Positions 1 to 39,985 of a DNA stretch of 41,094 nucleotides are shown in pieces. The stretch comes from a virus. The DNA lies in the IMG/VR virus record IMGVR_UViG_3300048927_000767, positions 1 through 41,094 of that record; one strand, given 5' to 3'. Position 1 is the stretch's first letter, and each line of letters begins with the position of its first letter. Both the position numbers and the translations under genes were made by a program. The notes under the pieces were generated by a model that worked only from the letters and a program-made list of their open reading frames with translations, did no database searches and was not told where the DNA came from.

Positions 1-462
1 ATGGAAATGTACCACTGCTGCATCACCCCGCTTGAGGTGGGTTCTGTCATTTTGCCGGGAAACTGGGGGCGAATTATCAAGCTCTACACATCTGCTGAAG
101 GCAACGTCCACATTGCCTATCGCGAGAAGATCCTCGAAGATCACAGGCAGGCAAACTTCCCCAACAAGCCCAGCAGACTTGATGGTGTCTTCGGCTGTCG
201 CGATCTCATGGACGCAATACAATATAAGCTTGAGAATGCACGCTGGTCGATAATCTACAGAGTAGAAACAGTCACGCAAGACCATCGAGTTCATCACGCG
301 CCCTGGACGTTCGATTACAACGATGCGAGAAAATTTTATTTCGAGGGGACACATGCCGTAGCCAACACATATTGGCAAGAGCACCCTCTCACCCAAGACA
401 TGGAAACGCTCGTCGACTGCCCTGTTCGAGTAGTCGAGCGCATACACGTGTCCGCCGCATGA
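1..462 (+). CDS. DUF2441-like protein, possibly ADP-ribosyltransferase fold; 5' end uncertain
   Basis: A 153-residue protein whose first visible ATG is base 1, so the true start may lie outside the window. It opens with a tyrosine-histidine pair (Y4-H5) and a G-N-W-G-R stretch at about 21-25, then R-E-K-I-L-E-D-H-R near 41-49 and P-S-R-L-D-G-V-F near 57-65. This resembles DUF2441-type proteins, which I recall as related to ADP-ribosyltransferase-like folds; that link is memory plus inference and no catalytic residue is proven. It is transcribed rightward, opposite to the phage late genes, so it could be a cargo gene at the phage left end or a host gene. No transmembrane segment or signal peptide is visible. 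Confidence 0.5.
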   Translation: MEMYHCCITPLEVGSVILPGNWGRIIKLYTSAEGNVHIAYREKILEDHRQANFPNKPSRLDGVFGCRDLMDAIQYKLENARWSIIYRVETVTQDHRVHHAPWTFDYNDARKFYFEGTHAVANTYWQEHPLTQDMETLVDCPVRVVERIHVSAA

Positions 463-4217: not shown

Positions 4218-5372
4218 CTACCCATGATGGTTGGAGGACTTTCTGTTTCCAGAATAAAAGTTTGGCAGCAAGGCATTCATGGCAGGACCGAGGTAGCGTG
4301 CACTGACCAACTCCAACACCCACGCAGCGGCCAATGATATGAGTACGACGAGCGCCACAGAGAACAGAGGATTAATGCCAGCCAACTGAGCAGCAAGCAT
4401 TGTCATCACGGGGAGGTGAACCAAATACAAAGGATAAGACAACTCCCCGATCATTCGATCGAACGACCAATCCTTCGTTAAATGGAACAGACAAGGCACG
4501 GCCAGGAATGCCGCGATCAGCGCCAGTGAAGAGTTTATCGAGATTGAGTAAACCCGATATTCCGGGAACAGTGGGTAGATTACCAACGCGACCATAAGTG
4601 CAAATGCATAGGCCGGATGGAGAAGCATTCCTGCGTTGTAAACTCGGTGCGCCACCATCCCACCCACGAAGAATGTCAACTCGAAGGGGAAGAAACGGTA
4701 ACGCCAGGGATCGCCATCGAAACCCAATTGATAAGCCACCACACGAAGCAATCCAACTCCCAACGCGATAAGGACGAGAGTTGTCGTTTTTCTTTTCGAG
4801 AACCATGGCGCCAAGCAGTAGAACATCAGTTCAAGGCTCAGCGTCCATGAAGGCACTATCAGTAAAAGGTTGTATGGTTGAGGGCCATCTCCTCGACCCA
4901 AGGCATCTACCAAGACTGTGCCCATCTCGGTTACCTTGGCGAAAAACAGTCCATCTTGACCAAACAGAACAACGTTCGAGATCGTCGCCCAAATTGTATA
5001 AAGCGGACCGAGTTCACTGGCGATTTCAAAAATATTGGACTGCGAGAGAATAGCCCAAATCAACACGCAAACCAACACCAACCAGTACGCAGGATAAATT
5101 CGGATTGCTCGAGCGATGTAAAAATCTGTTAGCCTAAGACTGCCGTCCGCTTTTCGGTACTTACCCGAAAGGACCAGAGACATATAGAAACCAGAGATTA
5201 TAAAGAAAATCTCGACAGCCACTTCACCGCCAACAAGTGGACGGAAACCGACCCACCACGAAGGCAAATGCGCAACGATGACCGAAATTGCAAGTATAAG
5301 TCTAAGAGCACCCATATTGGCTCGCTCGCATGATGTACCATTCATGTCAAGCAAGACGCGCCGCCCCGTCAT
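4218..5372 (-). CDS. acyltransferase family 3 membrane protein (probable LPS/O-antigen-modifying moron)
   Basis: A 384-residue integral membrane protein with about ten hydrophobic segments. The acyltransferase-3 signature is present: a conserved His in V-A-H-L near residue 34 at the end of TM1, G-E-V-A-V-E-I-F-F-I-I-S-G-F near 48-61, and R-A-I-R-I-Y-P-A-Y-W near 88-97. Members such as OafA and Oac O-acetylate surface polysaccharide. The start ATG 5370-5372 overlaps the upstream stop as ATGA; a later ATG at 5345 is also possible. It lies between the tail-fibre genes and the lysis cassette, and parts are visibly more AT-rich than its neighbours, which suggests a separately acquired lysogenic-conversion gene. 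Confidence 0.85.
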   Translation of the reverse strand: MTGRRVLLDMNGTSCERANMGALRLILAISVIVAHLPSWWVGFRPLVGGEVAVEIFFIISGFYMSLVLSGKYRKADGSLRLTDFYIARAIRIYPAYWLVLVCVLIWAILSQSNIFEIASELGPLYTIWATISNVVLFGQDGLFFAKVTEMGTVLVDALGRGDGPQPYNLLLIVPSWTLSLELMFYCLAPWFSKRKTTTLVLIALGVGLLRVVAYQLGFDGDPWRYRFFPFELTFFVGGMVAHRVYNAGMLLHPAYAFALMVALVIYPLFPEYRVYSISINSSLALIAAFLAVPCLFHLTKDWSFDRMIGELSYPLYLVHLPVMTMLAAQLAGINPLFSVALVVLISLAAAWVLELVSARYLGPAMNALLPNFYSGNRKSSNHHG

Positions 5373-5851
5373 GGCCAATATTGATCTGACGTAAAGTCAG
5401 AGGCAATTTCAGGCATATCCTTGATCGCACGCGCAGCAAATATGTGCGCCTCTTCATGGGCCGCAGCAGCCTGGCCAAATGCGAAACACGTTTGAGCGTC
5501 CATCTCCGTCATGCTGTTATCATCAGCAATCCAGCGAAACGGTTGCTCACCGCCATGCCAATGCAGATCACCCGCCTGCGAACCATTTGAGATAGCAAAC
5601 CCTGCCAACGTTCCAGCGCCGGTGACCCTTTGCCTGCTGATGGGATCGAAAGCATAGCGCTTGCCGGTGAAGCTGAAACCTGCATGAATGCGACGGTCTC
5701 GTTCTTCATTCACATCTGACGCGGTCGGCTTCTTTTCGATAAAGTTACGAAATTCTGGATCTTCAGCATCGATCTCGTCAGTACCGTCCTGCTCAGCAGC
5801 GTAGAAGCCAACAATCTTGCCGAGTTCACGCTTTACATGCACTTTACTCAT
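5369..5851 (-). CDS. DUF4376-domain protein, tail-fibre associated
   Basis: A 160-residue protein. The central and C-terminal part has the DUF4376 pattern: R-D-R-R-I-H-A-G-F-S-F near 51-61, then a beta-rich stretch and the helical A-A-A-A-H-E-E-A-H-I near 128-137. DUF4376 proteins are normally encoded just after tail fibres, often as C-terminal parts of fibres or fibre-assembly proteins. It overlaps the fibre gene by four bases and the acyltransferase gene by four bases, so it is translationally coupled on both sides. Confidence 0.7.
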   Translation of the reverse strand: MSKVHVKRELGKIVGFYAAEQDGTDEIDAEDPEFRNFIEKKPTASDVNEERDRRIHAGFSFTGKRYAFDPISRQRVTGAGTLAGFAISNGSQAGDLHWHGGEQPFRWIADDNSMTEMDAQTCFAFGQAAAAHEEAHIFAARAIKDMPEIASDFTSDQYWP

Positions 5852-25202: not shown

Positions 25203-25739
25203 CTATCGCGGCAGCAGCCGGTCGATCTCATGAAGGACACGCGGCGCAAGATGATCTTCGATGATCTCTGCCAACACCTTCAGGAACACATCCGGATTGT
25301 TGGTCACGTCATGCGCAGGGTTTGGCCCGTATAGTTCCTTGATCGGAAGCCGTGCCTTGCCTTCGCGGATCATGACACCCTGATGCCCGCTGTCCATTTT
25401 TGCGATGAATGCGGACTTGTAAGACCCTCTTGCCTTGACCCGCACACCGACTTTCGTTTGCGTTGCGCCCAACTTGTAGAGGCCGATCCATCCAGACCGC
25501 TCAACAATCTCGATCGAGTTGCCACCGGCATTGAAGTAGGCGGTTGTCAGCGCCCGGATTTCCTTCTGCGAAAGCTTCACGCGTTCCGCCGATCGCTTGA
25601 CCACACGTGTCTTGGCCATATCGCGCATGCGGCGCATGGACCGTGCCAAGGCCTTAGACTTGATATCACCCGGTAGACGACTGATCGCCCTGCCCAAGGC
25701 CTCAAGCTCTGATGTGTCAAAGGTTAGTTCGGCGCTCAT
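25203..25739 (-). CDS. minor tail protein Z-like
   Basis: A 178-residue basic protein resembling prophage minor tail protein Z: S-E-L-E-A-L-G-R-A-I near 9-18, then basic helical residues and the beta segment W-I-G-L-Y-K-L near 84-90. The ATG 25737-25739 is preferred to an upstream TTG. Unusually for a tail protein it lies ahead of the terminase genes, as the first virion gene of the late operon. Tail completion role is inferred from family. Confidence 0.7.
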   Translation of the reverse strand: MSAELTFDTSELEALGRAISRLPGDIKSKALARSMRRMRDMAKTRVVKRSAERVKLSQKEIRALTTAYFNAGGNSIEIVERSGWIGLYKLGATQTKVGVRVKARGSYKSAFIAKMDSGHQGVMIREGKARLPIKELYGPNPAHDVTNNPDVFLKVLAEIIEDHLAPRVLHEIDRLLPR

Positions 25740-25755
25740 AACCCTAATACGCAAA

Positions 25756-25779
25756 GAGGCGACCGGTTAAGGTCGCCTC
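25756..25779 (-). terminator. strong hairpin ahead of the late operon
   Basis: GAGGCGACC (25756-25764) and GGTCGCCTC (25771-25779) form a perfect nine-base stem with a six-base loop. Read leftward it is followed only by a TTT, so termination would be moderate. It lies between the NusG-like gene and the first late gene and could be the terminator that an antiterminator must overcome. Confidence 0.5.
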
Positions 25780-25907
25780 ATCAAGTCCGCCATAATCTCA
25801 TAGCTGTAGCACTGGCCCTGAATCGGTGTCTCGCTTCGGGAGACTGTCAGAGCTGGGTGCGGGCGTGAAACGAAATCGCCACTAAGAACCGCATCGACCA
25901 TGCGCAT
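25767..25907 (-). CDS. possible small protein (46 residues)
   Basis: An open frame starting ATG 25905-25907, seven bases after the NusG-like stop, with an AAAAG before it. It ends inside the hairpin at 25756-25779. The peptide has V-S-R-P-H-P-A-L-T-V-S-R near 13-24 and C-Y-S-Y-E near 34-38. No family recognised; kept because it fills the gap in the tightly packed leftward operon. Confidence 0.3.
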   Translation of the reverse strand: MRMVDAVLSGDFVSRPHPALTVSRSETPIQGQCYSYEIMADLMRRP

Positions 25908-25914
25908 CTTTTAC

Positions 25915-26568
25915 TCACACTTTTTCCAGCATGACAAGAGGCATGTTAAACACGGTCGGCTTTCCGAAAATCAGGATGGTCACAACAGCGTCACCGTTAC
26001 CGGCTCCCGCGAATGCATCAATGCGCACTTCGTAACCAACAAATGGTCCGCTTGTGATCCTGACTGTCTGACCCTTATAGAAAGCGCTCGAAGAACGCTC
26101 CCAGTCGTAGTCACCATTTTCAGCCATCACCTTGAATGAATTGATGACTTCCGCATCAATCGGAACAGCCCTTTCCCCGTTCATGATGATCCGGTTAACG
26201 TGTTTGAAGCCCAAAACACCGCGTAAAGCTTCACCGATATTGAGGCAAAAAACAAACACGACACCGTTGAAAACTGGCATCGATTGAGCGGGCAATCGCT
26301 TGCCGTGGCGCTTGCGCTCTGGCCCCATCCGCATGGGAACGCACGCCTCAATGTCCGCCTCCAGCATCGCCCTTTCCACAGCCTGTTCATGACCAAACGC
26401 GACTTGCACCACCATCCAGCAAGAATCAGCGGTGTTTTTAGCCAGCCACCGGCTCGCCGATTCGCGCTCTCGCGCAATCTGTGCGGCTTCCTCAGCGATG
26501 CGATCCAGCTTGAGCATGCCTTTAAGGGAAACGTGTTTGGATATGTCGTCGAACTTATGCTGCATCAT
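25915..26568 (-). CDS. NusG-family transcription antiterminator (phage paralogue)
   Basis: A 217-residue protein. After a helical, Glu/Arg-rich N-terminal extension (about 15-45), the NGN domain begins at W-M-V-V-Q-V near 51-56 and includes A-C-V-P-M-R near 74-79, R-K-R-H-G-K-R near 84-90, P-V-F-N-G-V-V-F-V near 97-105. The C-terminal KOW domain is Y-K-G-Q-T-V-R-I-T-S-G-P-F near 164-176 ending in L-E-K-V. This is NusG/RfaH architecture. ATG 26566-26568 has GAGGGG upstream. It lies immediately before the ~25-kb late operon, implying control of late transcription by processive antitermination; that role is inferred. Confidence 0.8.
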   Translation of the reverse strand: MMQHKFDDISKHVSLKGMLKLDRIAEEAAQIARERESASRWLAKNTADSCWMVVQVAFGHEQAVERAMLEADIEACVPMRMGPERKRHGKRLPAQSMPVFNGVVFVFCLNIGEALRGVLGFKHVNRIIMNGERAVPIDAEVINSFKVMAENGDYDWERSSSAFYKGQTVRITSGPFVGYEVRIDAFAGAGNGDAVVTILIFGKPTVFNMPLVMLEKV

Positions 26569-27769
26569 CGTTACGCCCCTCAATTACCGTTCGTTCAAAC
26601 TCAGCCATCGCATCGGCCACAGCCCCATCCAGATCATCAGCGCCCTCATCGACATGAGGAAGCCAAAGCCACTCCAGCCCCGGAGCGTGTGGCAACCATG
26701 GCCAGCCCTTGCGCTCATGCAGCCGTTGCCATGCAGCCGCCACGTCACCACCAACATGCGCCTTTCCAAAGCCCTCAGAGATCCGCAGCAACGCAGGCGT
26801 GACGGTCATGCCTTTGTGGTCAGAAGCCCGCTCGTGCATGGTGTTGACCTTTGGCCAGCCATATTTTTGCTTACGCTCAAGCACGATCTGGCGAGCGACA
26901 TCACCGCCAGCCTCCAGCATTCGTTGCTGCATGGCGGTTGGCGCTGGCACCGTGGTGGCAATTGGTTGGGTTAGCTCAAACAGGCGCAGCGCATGCCAAG
27001 GGCGTGAGAACGGCTTGTGCATCGTCGGCAGGGCAACTTCAGACTTCGGGTCATCCAGCTTTTCCCAATCCCGGCCATTCAGGTACACACCGGCATACGG
27101 CACCCTCACGCCCTTGGTGGCATTGGCCCGTTCGATGTAGAGCGGCGACTTGGCAATGCAGTCGGCTCGCTGTTCTGGTGTCAGTGCCTGCCAAGCCTTC
27201 TCGGCAGCATGGGTGCTGTCGCTCTTGCGGGTTGGCCAATCGCCGTACCAGCGTTTGAATGCACGGTAACTTGCCTTGGCATCTTCACCAGAAACACTTT
27301 CCCGCGCATCTCCCTCTTGCTCAAAATCAGTATTTTCTAAGTTTGAGTTATTACTATGTGCCGATTTTACCGGCGACGGAGAAACCGGCGACGGTTTTAC
27401 CGGCGACGGCATTTCAGTCTGCGGTAGAAATGCAACACTCTCGTTTTCCGCACCTTCAGCAGCAGTGCGCGGCTCATCGTAAATGACGAAGGAAGCGGCG
27501 CTAAAACGGCCATCTTCGCGCGTCTGCTCGCGTTCCGCGTAACCGGCATCAACCAGCTCCGAAATCATCTTGCGCGCCTTGTCGCGCCCGCAGTTGCCCT
27601 TGTTGACGATATCCCCGATCACGACCTTCCAGTGATCAGGCTTCGACAACAAATAGCCGAGCAGCCAGCGCGCATCCATCGACAGGCGCGTATCTTCAAA
27701 CACGTGGTTTGGAATGGCGGAGTAGCGCGCATTGCGCACCCCGCGACGGATTGAAGCCTCACCGCTCAT
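26555..27769 (-). CDS. winged-helix replication initiator-like protein
   Basis: A 404-residue protein. The N-terminal ~95 residues form a helix-turn-helix domain: L-S-M-D-A-R-W-L-L-G-Y-L-L-S near 29-42, then V-V-I-G-D-I near 49-54 and G-R-D-K-A-R-K-M-I near 61-69. A linker with P-S-P-V repeats (about 120-135) follows, and a C-terminal helical domain with W-Y-G-D-W-P near 174-179. This layout resembles phage initiators such as lambda gpO, with DNA binding first and a helicase-recruiting part later. The DNA coding the linker has iteron-like repeats beside an AT-rich patch (27321-27409). Overlaps both neighbours by a few bases. Confidence 0.65.
   Translation of the reverse strand: MSGEASIRRGVRNARYSAIPNHVFEDTRLSMDARWLLGYLLSKPDHWKVVIGDIVNKGNCGRDKARKMISELVDAGYAEREQTREDGRFSAASFVIYDEPRTAAEGAENESVAFLPQTEMPSPVKPSPVSPSPVKSAHSNNSNLENTDFEQEGDARESVSGEDAKASYRAFKRWYGDWPTRKSDSTHAAEKAWQALTPEQRADCIAKSPLYIERANATKGVRVPYAGVYLNGRDWEKLDDPKSEVALPTMHKPFSRPWHALRLFELTQPIATTVPAPTAMQQRMLEAGGDVARQIVLERKQKYGWPKVNTMHERASDHKGMTVTPALLRISEGFGKAHVGGDVAAAWQRLHERKGWPWLPHAPGLEWLWLPHVDEGADDLDGAVADAMAEFERTVIEGRNDDAA
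27321..27409. other. candidate replication origin inside initiator gene
   Basis: Three exact ACCGGCGACGG copies at 27369-27379, 27384-27394 and 27399-27409 with a 15-base period. The 27321-27358 segment beside them is strikingly AT-rich relative to the rest of the gene. Iterons plus an AT-rich patch inside an initiator gene is the lambda-type origin arrangement. The repeats also encode P-S-P-V-K/S units, so a protein-level repeat is the alternative. Confidence 0.5.
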
Positions 27770-30218: not shown

Positions 30219-31796
30219 TCATTCCGCACCGCCTTCTGGCGTTCCGGCCTGATTACCCCAAAACTCCCAGTTGCCGTTGAGGCGCACGTCATCAGGCGCA
30301 AGACTATCCTTGCGCTGGAAAAGCTCGACCTTGCGCAGCTCCGGCCACAGACGTTCGATCTGTTCGGCAAACCACACCGGCTTGCGGCTGTGTTCGGTCT
30401 TGGCTTCGGAATAAAGGCTTTCGGGCTGCGTACCCATTAACGGCGCAAGCGAGATAGATCCGCGTTTGCCGATAAGCAGGATCTCATGACGATCGCGCAC
30501 CCACCGGCCCATGCCTATCCGTTGCTTGTCCCACACCATGCAAGTGGCATATTCGAAGCCCCAAGCCTGCATTACCGCAATGCCGTCTGGAAGGCGGTTT
30601 GCTGTCACCCACAGCAGCAGCACGGCATCGCGTGTGAACGGTGATTTGTCGCCAGCACATAACGCCTTGATCTCATAGAGCGGCATTGAGGGATACTTCA
30701 GCCCTTTATCTTGACCGGTTTCCTCACTCCATTGCTCTTGCTCCCACGGCGGATCCGCATAACCGATCGGAAATGCAGATAGCGGCATCTCGACACCGGC
30801 TTTGCGGCCATGCTGCGAGATAAGATTGACCATGCGCAGGCGAGACTGACGGTTATCAGCCTGTTGCGCCGTGCGGATCTGCTTGCTCTTGGCAGCAATG
30901 GCCTTGTCCGAGGCGATCAGTTCGCGAACGAAGTTTTCCTGCGCTTCCGCAGTTTCCAGCCGCTTGATCTTGTCGAGAACGACACCCTTATTGTGGGCCG
31001 TGCTGCGCAACATCTGCAAAGCCATGGGCGATATCTTTTCGCCGCGCTCAACATCACGACGAATGGTCCGCTCATCCTGCCCCGTCGCTTCCGCCGTAGC
31101 AGCGGTAAACCGTTTTGGCGGCTCGGTTTTCAAGTGGCCAATTTGTCCACTTGATTTGCGATCGCCGCCATGCGCCGTTTCCGGGTGCTTGATGAGATAG
31201 ATTTCCTTACGGCGGGCAAGGAACAGCGCGCGGTCTGCTGGCGACAGATCCTCACGGATCAGGTTTTCGTCGATCTCGCAAAGCTGGCGGTCGAGGTCAT
31301 CCCCTTCGTAGTGGAAGCAGAGAACCTTGATGCCGAGACGGCGGCAGGCTTCCAGCCGGTGGCCACCCGCACCCAGCTTAACAGTTGCGTCGGTCTCTTT
31401 GCCATAAACCTCAATCGGCTGATGCTGTCCGACGCGTTGAAAAGCCTCCATAAGCGCAAGCACGGTGCCTTCACCGAGGTCACGCAGCCGGTCGTCTGAA
31501 TTGATAGTGGCAGGATCGCGAAGCACCGCAACCTTGCTGCCTGATCCGGTTTCAGGGTCGACAGCTGGCAGTTTGCCAAGCTCACGCGCCCTATCCAGCA
31601 TGCCGATAGCATGTTCACCAGGACGAAACATATTGCCGTCTTTTGGGTCACGCGTAAGGTAGCGCTGCACCACACACAAATTGGCGGCAATAGTTTCATT
31701 AGTGCTTTTGCTGCGATACTCGCCATCGCGAACAGCGGCGGCAACTATCTCAATACCCAGAACCCTTGGCAGTGGAAACTCGATAGCCGCCATCAC
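30219..31796 (-). CDS. ParB/sulfiredoxin-like domain fused to MT-A70 adenine methyltransferase
   Basis: A 525-residue protein. Residues about 95-200 are ParB-N-like: G-A-G-G-H-R-L-E-A-C-R-R-L near 142-154 and I-D-E-N-L-I-R-E-D-L near 175-184. A helix-turn-helix lies around 228-255. The C-terminal half is an MT-A70 methyltransferase with D-P-P-W at 348-351 and W-V-T-A-N near 396-400. It probably makes N6-methyladenine at sites the ParB-like part helps locate. Such fusions are known in phages. The start overlaps the 70-residue gene upstream by four bases. It is separated from the second methyltransferase by the inserted hicAB unit. Confidence 0.85.
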   Translation of the reverse strand: MMAAIEFPLPRVLGIEIVAAAVRDGEYRSKSTNETIAANLCVVQRYLTRDPKDGNMFRPGEHAIGMLDRARELGKLPAVDPETGSGSKVAVLRDPATINSDDRLRDLGEGTVLALMEAFQRVGQHQPIEVYGKETDATVKLGAGGHRLEACRRLGIKVLCFHYEGDDLDRQLCEIDENLIREDLSPADRALFLARRKEIYLIKHPETAHGGDRKSSGQIGHLKTEPPKRFTAATAEATGQDERTIRRDVERGEKISPMALQMLRSTAHNKGVVLDKIKRLETAEAQENFVRELIASDKAIAAKSKQIRTAQQADNRQSRLRMVNLISQHGRKAGVEMPLSAFPIGYADPPWEQEQWSEETGQDKGLKYPSMPLYEIKALCAGDKSPFTRDAVLLLWVTANRLPDGIAVMQAWGFEYATCMVWDKQRIGMGRWVRDRHEILLIGKRGSISLAPLMGTQPESLYSEAKTEHSRKPVWFAEQIERLWPELRKVELFQRKDSLAPDDVRLNGNWEFWGNQAGTPEGGAE

Positions 31797-38958: not shown

Positions 38959-39447
38959 CTATTCGTCCTCAGTGACCGCCATCAGCTCTGGCTCCGGTTC
39001 CGCAAATGAGCTTACTCCAGAGGCACCAACACCTCCTGGCGAGGGCGGGAGTGGAGGGAATGGCGCTCTCATCTGATGAGATACTACAGCGAATAGTGAA
39101 GTAAAAGCGTTCCAGACTGATGTCGCAACATATCTTTTACAAGAAGCTGCGACCTTAAGCATGTCGTCTGACGAGTTCTGAAGGATACAGGCATACGTGG
39201 CCATAACCGCCTGCAACTCTTCATCTGTATCCGAGTTTCTCTTCACTACCGAAAAGTTGCACCTAAAGAAGAACTTGTTTTCACCGATTTCTTCCGGCGT
39301 ATCCAACATCGCGGAATACCGCAACTCGACCTTATCACTCTCTACTACTTCGGGCCGCGCTACCAGATCCACTTCGACTAGGGACTGAGCGAGAAGCTTT
39401 GATGTAACAGTGGACGGTTCTTTTTTTGATTTGGCTGATTTAGCCAT
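38959..39447 (-). CDS. SecB-like chaperone of a toxin-antitoxin-chaperone module
   Basis: A 162-residue protein. The region about 55-75 (N-K-F-F-F-R-C-N-F-S-V-V) and 108-137 (A-T-S-V-W-N-A-F-T-S-L-F near 108-119, then M-R-A-P-F-P-P-L-P near 126-134) aligns in pattern with SecB, where the same place reads Y-x-R-E-x-x-x-x-L-T and P-P-L-x-L. Overlap with hicB at 39440-39447 places it as the third gene of the operon. In characterised TAC systems (for example Rv1957 with HigBA) a SecB-like protein protects the antitoxin from aggregation and degradation. The match is by pattern and context and needs structure-level confirmation. Pro-rich C-terminal tail after about 130. Confidence 0.65.
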   Translation of the reverse strand: MAKSAKSKKEPSTVTSKLLAQSLVEVDLVARPEVVESDKVELRYSAMLDTPEEIGENKFFFRCNFSVVKRNSDTDEELQAVMATYACILQNSSDDMLKVAASCKRYVATSVWNAFTSLFAVVSHQMRAPFPPLPPSPGGVGASGVSSFAEPEPELMAVTEDE

Positions 39448-39985
39448 GTAACTTCACTTTATCGCCTGCTTTGAAATTAAACGCGTGCCATGCTCCAGCG
39501 TCTTCACTGACGTAAGCCAGCCTAGCCTTGTCATAGGTGCCATGATAGAGCGTCTCTGGAACCAAGTTTTGCTGAACTTGAAGCAGTTGAACCGTCGCCG
39601 CCACACTCATTTCTTGGCGCTTCTTCGAAAAAACGCCGTCGAAACGGTCTGCTATTCCGTTGCAATCAAGCTTCTCTGTAACCGCCATGCAGATCCAAGC
39701 ATTCAAAGACACACCGATATCCGCAGCAGCCATTGCAGACTTGCGGTGTAAATCGGGTTCCATGCGAACATTAAACGACCCTTTGAACGGCTTCTGGGGC
39801 TCGCGGCCTTCCTCCACACACGTATCGATATAGTCATCGATAAGGGCCTTCGCGCACGCTTCTACTTCGGAAGCTGCGTCGCATTCCGCTACCAGCAGAT
39901 CATCGATATGCAAAACCTTAATGAAGAGGCTTCCGTCCTCCCATTCGACAGAAGCTTGATAACCTTTATAAGTGATCGGCTTCAT
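39440..39985 (-). CDS. hicB: HicB antitoxin with long C-terminal extension (candidate chaperone-addiction domain)
   Basis: A 181-residue antitoxin. Y-K-G-Y-Q-A-S-V-E-W near 6-15 and I-D-D-Y-I-D-T-C near 49-56 form the HicB RNase H-like part. A ribbon-helix-helix lies at about 70-106: F-N-V-R-M-E-P-D-L-H near 71-80 and S-L-N-A-W-I near 93-98. Typical members of this type end near residue 110. Here about 75 residues follow, with hydrophobic patches L-Y-H-G-T-Y near 146-151 and A-W-H-A-F-N-F near 165-171. In SecB-linked modules such an extension is the chaperone-addiction segment that makes the antitoxin unstable unless the chaperone binds. Four-base overlap with hicA. Confidence 0.8.
   Translation of the reverse strand: MKPITYKGYQASVEWEDGSLFIKVLHIDDLLVAECDAASEVEACAKALIDDYIDTCVEEGREPQKPFKGSFNVRMEPDLHRKSAMAAADIGVSLNAWICMAVTEKLDCNGIADRFDGVFSKKRQEMSVAATVQLLQVQQNLVPETLYHGTYDKARLAYVSEDAGAWHAFNFKAGDKVKLHG

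Follow-up and report, generated by a model that had tools for sequence, protein, structure and literature searches.

How might a phage use a NusG paralogue of its own, encoded directly before its late genes? The window analyzed here is a whole virus record of 41,094 bases, and the features of the locus are collected in Table 1. The late operon runs leftward for ~25 kb, from the ATG at 25739 to approximately position 844, and encodes neck/tail completion, TerS, TerL, portal, head protease, sheath, tape measure, and baseplate proteins. The preliminary description placed the nusG gene directly before these genes, and it does lie there, at the early/late boundary, but the description assigned it to the head of the late operon. 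The start of nusG overlaps the end of the replication initiation gene by 14 nt, and nusG is therefore better called the final gene of the leftward early/replication operon, just upstream of the late operon. Elsewhere in the window, a 525-residue fusion protein (30219–31796, minus strand) combines an N-terminal half resembling ParB with a second half of the MT-A70 DNA methyltransferase type and matches PHROG 3264, 359, and 21315 and Pfam MT-A70. An O-antigen acetylase-type acyltransferase (4218–5378, minus strand) lies within the late tail region and is a possible surface-modifying cargo gene, and a HicB-like antitoxin match (39440–39985, minus strand) lies near the integrase end of the genome.

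Table 1. Features of the nusG locus in the window
Feature	Position	Strand	Details and evidence
Replication initiation (HTH) gene	26555–27769	-	Upstream neighbor of nusG; PHROG 270, 1.1e-37
Phage NusG paralogue, 217 residues	25915–26568	-	ATG 26568, stop 25915–25917; translation MMQHKF...LEKV (starts MMQHKFDD); Pfam, PHROG, NCBIfam, profile against solved NusG, AlphaFold2 and fold search
NusG domain layout	Residues 1–46, 50–150, 160–217		Helical N-terminal extension, NGN, and KOW β-barrel, respectively; AlphaFold2, profiles
P1 domain, subtype A	25855–25899	-	Outer helix GG..UGCGG/CCGCA..CC around a small inner hairpin; compensatory changes
P2 with P2b	25815–25853	-	P2 GCUCUGA 25853–25847/UCAGGGC 25821–25815; covariation in 90-sequence alignment
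P2b	25844–25840/25832–25828	-	Apical hairpin of P2, GUCUC/GAGAC
P3	25799–25814	-	CA-GU-GC, tetraloop UACA, GC-UA-UG
Intrinsic-terminator-like hairpin	25756–25779	-	9 bp, loop of 6, then TTTGCG
Neck/tail completion, first late gene	25203–25739	-	ATG 25739; PHROG 27, 3.7e-28

The identity of the nusG product as a NusG paralogue is supported by profile and structural comparisons. Pfam NusG (PF02357) matches residues 50–145 (1.9e-10; 41.6 bits against a cut-off of 22.2), and with the window protein alone Pfam KOW matches residues 165–183 (0.0016; 18.7 bits, under the cut-off of 22.3). A profile of 78 relatives aligns residues 44–214 to E. coli NusG at E ~1e-33, and the NGN match (E ≤ 0.01) is present in all 78 members. 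The same profile matches RfaH and the NusG–RNA complex 8f5g, which we take to be a LoaP complex, at ~1e-16 (9e-17 for 8f5g). PHROG 6386, "transcription antiterminator," is a profile that also matches housekeeping NusG, and it matches residues 45–217 at 7.5e-31. The AlphaFold2 model (mean pLDDT 87.7) has an N-terminal helix at residues 15–37, an NGN fold, and a β-barrel KOW domain, and the NGN domains of NusG and RfaH rank first in a fold comparison against the PDB. By profile and predicted structure, then, the protein is a member of the NusG/Spt5 superfamily, and the earlier portrayal of a 217-residue product with NGN and KOW domains and an N-terminal helix is borne out. Its NCBIfam scores fall below the cut-offs for housekeeping NusG (TIGR00922; 39.5 bits, cut-off 135.7), LoaP (NF033641; 44.3 bits, cut-off 125), RfaH (TIGR01955; 30.6 bits, cut-off 144.5), and UpxY (NF033644; 56.8 bits, cut-off 100). 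The modeled KOW domain consists of strands without the autoinhibited α-hairpin of RfaH, a kind of prediction that can miss fold-switching. In a phylogenetic tree, 12 rhizobial housekeeping NusGs form one group with a support of 99; the phage proteins lie outside it and split into several deep branches whose branching order is weakly supported.

The order of a replication-initiator/HTH gene, nusG, and late or HNH genes is also annotated in five phages, Agrobacterium Rivra, Sinorhizobium phi3LM21, Rhizobium PPF1, Mesorhizobium MseS-P1, and "Nostoc" Nsp-JY10, and each has a short overlap between the initiator gene and nusG. Four of the five proteins are 27–33% identical to the window NusG, and the gene order is nonetheless kept. 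In five further loci, the large downstream genes are terminase and portal genes of two unrelated lineages (terminase PHROG 15 or 9). The NusG and leader RNA of Nsp-JY10 (L042; PP395642.1) are typically rhizobial, which puts its stated host, the cyanobacterium Nostoc, in doubt.

The 175 nt between the nusG stop and the first late ATG (25914–25740) are conserved over nearly their whole length in 15 close relatives, among which compensating changes are seen across the gap. The gap consists of a P1 domain, P2 with P2b, a P3 tetraloop hairpin, and then the terminator-like hairpin, and the structured element spans ~145 nt (25899–25756). The window-type P1 helix is also given as GG..UCCGG/CCGGA..CC, and P1 encloses ~25 to 110 nt across elements. 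The preliminary description had reported a strong hairpin after the gene; the hairpin is present, but rather than standing alone it is the 3' end of the ~145-nt element. Its sequence is GAGGCGACC-TTAACC-GGTCGCCTC followed by a short T run, and the first late ATG is only 16 nt past it. We did not detect a promoter-like site on the late-gene strand within the 175-nt leader. A scan with the Rfam 15 covariance models gave no match to E = 5 for the window or to E = 0.5 for ten other loci, and the Nsp-JY10 locus gave only weak antisense matches below the gathering score. With no match in Rfam 15, a known RNA family was rejected. A coding leader is ruled out by stops in all three frames of the window and by length changes that are not multiples of three.

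Distant relatives were sought with a DNA motif, as the protein alignment is without conserved blocks. The first motif, GGTCGATNNGGTTCTTAG, was taken from the window-type leader and matched 25 viral contigs; a nusG gene adjoins 24 of these sites, and the remaining contig ends at the element. The 3' core of the leader is common to four distant annotated phages. The core motif, CGAYTCARGGCNRGTGCNNNNGCTATG, matched at least 119 viral contigs and 50 host contigs, and the titles of all 50 host contigs are Rhizobiales. Among the matches listed, a NusG-paralogue frame ends 85–181 nt upstream of 145 of the 155 unique elements, and the other 10 are without upstream sequence. Wherever linkage was assessable (145/145), the element lies directly 3' of a NusG-paralogue gene, though it was sought by DNA motif alone. 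Covariance model R2 matches 38 of 346 host-family genomes and only 4 of 297 genomes of the wider order, two of them weakly; the core motif alone matches 1 of 385 genomes in the class, which is the center genome itself. All 33 strong loci retrieved from these searches have a NusG-paralogue frame ending 46–135 nt upstream, a set that partly overlaps the 155 elements through common contigs. Weak R2 matches at L212 and L213 (~24 bits), which are without NusG, were taken as chance. The window and the five annotated phages have one leader site per locus. In the reverse test, the core is present beside 7 of 13 phage-like nusG genes found by protein profile. Four of the 13, the Mesorhizobium-type loci L215, L220, L222, and L223, form a second leader class with a P1-like start, AGGACGAGCCGAAAGAGTCGCAC..GCCATCGGCCCCAG, and a different 3' hairpin replacing P2/P3; L214 and L224 have no clear element after nusG.

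Covariation was used in place of a single-sequence fold because the 5' hairpin of the minimum-energy fold of the window leader (z = −1.6) is not kept in relatives. RNAalifold on the 90-sequence alignment missed P2, and model R1 was poor. In model R2, P2, P2b, and P3 were named by hand, and shuffles and slid partners then served as controls for the helices. In the 90-sequence alignment, 91.4% of the cells in P2, P2b, and the two inner P3 pairs are paired, compared to 17–48% for slid helix partners. These helices contain 91 double-changed cells; the shuffled mean is 32, and none of 500 shuffles was as high. P2b is drawn as 35 different helices across the relatives. P1 subtypes A, B, and C have 17, 75, and 39 double-changed cells compared to shuffle maxima of 8, 35, and 20, values favored by deriving each structure from the alignment on which it was tested. 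The compensatory changes in subtype A are C-G/G-C, C-G/U-A, U-A/C-G, and G-C/C-G, and the larger P1 domains of subtypes B and C covary too. Because the search motif included the 3' arm of P2 and the letters of P3, the independent evidence comes from the 5' arm of P2, P2b, and P1, and the constancy of the P3 stem is not independent of the search pattern. Wobble pairs favor neither strand (42 versus 46); the strand of the leader RNA was assigned from gene direction and from the T run, which is short at the window terminator. Conservation and covariation of the entire leader rule out a chance hairpin. A conserved recruitment site in the leader was among the things the preliminary description proposed to look for, and the conservation, linkage, and covarying helices make this element a strong candidate.

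The RNA varies in type along the protein tree. The P1-domain subtype tracks the NusG tree (10 changes compared to 37.7 when shuffled), and the window subtype, A, is one clade. Close linkage of RNA and gene could explain part of this agreement, as the two are neighbors and being inherited together would by itself be enough to couple their types. Among the matches listed, the P3 loop is GNRA in 91 of 144 elements and UACN in 49. GNRA and UACN swap at least 7–12 times on the NusG tree, so the loop letters are probably not the specificity determinant.

A hairpin with a T run lies within 160 nt of the core in 123 of the 144 elements among the matches listed, compared to 10 of 364 control windows. 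These hairpins are mostly 10–27 nt past P3, a spacing that would place the RNA core close to the exit channel of the polymerase as the terminator is being transcribed. Of the 21 remaining elements, at least two have a terminator that the detection rule missed, and others have one beyond an insert; inserts push the terminator ~49–240 nt from the core in some loci. No clear terminator precedes the first late gene in a Mesorhizobium-type subset that has the RNA (L045, L058, L100, L175, L190, and others). Terminator stems are of at least three unrelated sequence kinds and their spacing ranges from 10 to ~240 nt, which disfavors attenuation through leader–terminator pairing; leader and terminator are thus not simply base-paired. 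The ~110-nt inserts between core and terminator in L136 (2215–2370) and L013 (8775–8905) have a tRNA-like look and end in a T-arm-like GGGTTCGAATCCC; ARAGORN found no tRNA in the L013 insert, and Rfam found none in that of L136. L162, L166, L142, L049, L070, and L203 have extra sequence between the core and the late genes, apparently small or opposite-strand genes, and L162 and L166 retain the terminator behind them. It seems that cargo genes can be inserted in the gap between core and late genes.

We propose RNA-loaded read-through because the anatomy of the locus matches that of the LoaP leader (PMC12691694). Judged from sequence and this analogy, the protein and the nascent leader RNA probably assemble into an antitermination complex through which the late operon is opened, a two-part cis-acting switch. 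The early transcript would encode the replication functions and lastly the NusG paralogue, and would then run through the P1–P2/P2b–P3 RNA before the terminator. In the early phase of infection or induction, the leader terminator would halt most RNA polymerases. As the paralogue accumulates, it would be recruited to polymerase fresh from the leader, most likely through the folded RNA at the exit channel, and the NGN domain would keep it there. Paralogue-bound polymerase would pass the leader terminator and then the later pauses and terminators of the 25-kb late operon. The early-to-late switch would be self-timed, because nusG lies upstream of the leader on the same transcript. We infer RNA–protein binding, termination, antitermination, and processivity as the steps of this scheme, which is consistent with the persistence of the order NusG, leader, and late genes despite protein identities of 27–33% and unrelated head modules.

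Other functions for the element were weighed against this proposal. It is unlikely that the leader is a device for ending the early operon, such as a stabilizing 3'UTR, an sRNA from the nusG mRNA, or a site of NusG self-repression, with the late genes using another promoter. A 3'UTR with an intrinsic terminator does resemble a 3'UTR-derived sRNA, and the short distance from the terminator hairpin to the late ATG favors such a device. However, the gap, without a promoter-like site found on this strand, is filled by the element, the element still precedes the late module where inserts split core and terminator, and its elaborate conserved structure exceeds a stabilizer's needs. The RNA could also act on RNA polymerase alone in the manner of HK022 put, with NusG adding processivity or competing with host NusG. 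In favor of this, the RNA is a large folded one whose strongly conserved core lies beside a terminator, and put shows that RNA alone can suffice (PMC9378689). This is quite unlikely at the present locus, as the one-to-one NusG linkage and P1 subtypes that follow NusG clades would then be unnecessary.

The two remaining explanations concern how the protein reaches polymerase. The compensating pairs of changes in P1, P2, and P2b are the mark of RNA structure and make it very unlikely that, as with RfaH, recruitment depends on a non-template DNA motif read by the paralogue at a pause in the leader, with the RNA fold secondary. RfaH is nevertheless the best-known paralogue and uses ops DNA, its NGN domain is among the best fold matches, and the invariant CGAYTCA and GTGC..GCTATG blocks, both of which were in the search pattern, could hold a DNA motif. 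That the protein is a host-like NusG acting in general elongation without targeted recruitment, next to a leader that serves as a transcription–translation or Rho-control site, is highly improbable. Its KOW domain has an IFGK/R-like stretch at the position of IFGR in E. coli NusG, but the protein is separate from the housekeeping group and below all NCBIfam cut-offs, and a general factor is not expected to have a dedicated RNA partner.

If the antitermination proposal is true, the locus provides a new RNA family whose protein partner is known and whose output is clear, and it makes a NusG paralogue the controller of a phage lytic program. Late-gene timing in rhizobial and Brucella/Ochrobactrum-type prophages, a large group, may then be explained. 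More than 100 natural variants would become available for studying how RNA recruits NusG paralogues, and the covariance model would mark the early/late boundary for annotators.

The preliminary description had presented a phage NusG antiterminator as a distinct solution to late gene control. The idea itself is already annotated in PHROG 6386 and six phage records, whereas the leader RNA family and its paired protein–RNA module appear undescribed. Rivra, PPF1, phi3LM21, Nsp-JY10, and MseS-P1 share the protein family and the gene position with the window, as annotation only. A text search of two papers describing phi3LM21 and MseS-P1 gave no mention of NusG or antitermination, and no note of the RNA element was found. 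In the open-access literature, the scope of the search, no paper on a phage-encoded NusG was found. The apparent novelty lies in the RNA family, in its being paired exclusively with this NusG branch, and in the view of late control that follows.

LoaP is the closest parallel in anatomy: it binds a leader RNA hairpin and reads through the leader terminator (PMC12691694). The dfn/mln leader of Bacillus velezensis, like the leader described here, pairs a specialized NusG paralogue with an RNA element, then an intrinsic terminator and a long operon (PMC12691694). The window has this succession with an RNA unlike the UNCG hairpin; the LoaP RNA is one small hairpin of that type, whereas the phage leader is a multi-domain RNA of ~120–190 nt. 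LoaP drives antibiotic operons and the phage NusG, which has an extra N-terminal helix, adjoins phage late genes. The phage system would be LoaP-like in its working, but the protein falls below the LoaP cut-off and the RNA is different. RfaH is likewise a NusG paralogue that prevents termination on long operons, and the NGN folds are similar (Z ~9). The phage protein differs in its low RfaH score and its modeled barrel KOW, and the conserved leader feature is an RNA structure in the phage compared to a short DNA motif for RfaH. Lambda Q, lambda N/nut, and HK022 put are phage antitermination systems that open late or early genes, and put and nut are nascent-RNA elements. Lambda Q and N are unrelated to NusG, Q is loaded via DNA, and put acts without a phage protein. 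The Caulobacter gene transfer agent has an antiterminator, GafZ, that opens an alphaproteobacterial virion-gene cluster (PMC11150451); GafZ falls outside the NusG paralogues, works with host NusG, and is believed to load at a promoter DNA element. On balance, the phage NusG and its own large leader RNA would be a cassette for an antitermination particle, present at one site per phage in rhizobial phages and in front of unrelated head modules, and would be a third kind of late control beside lambda Q and N/put.
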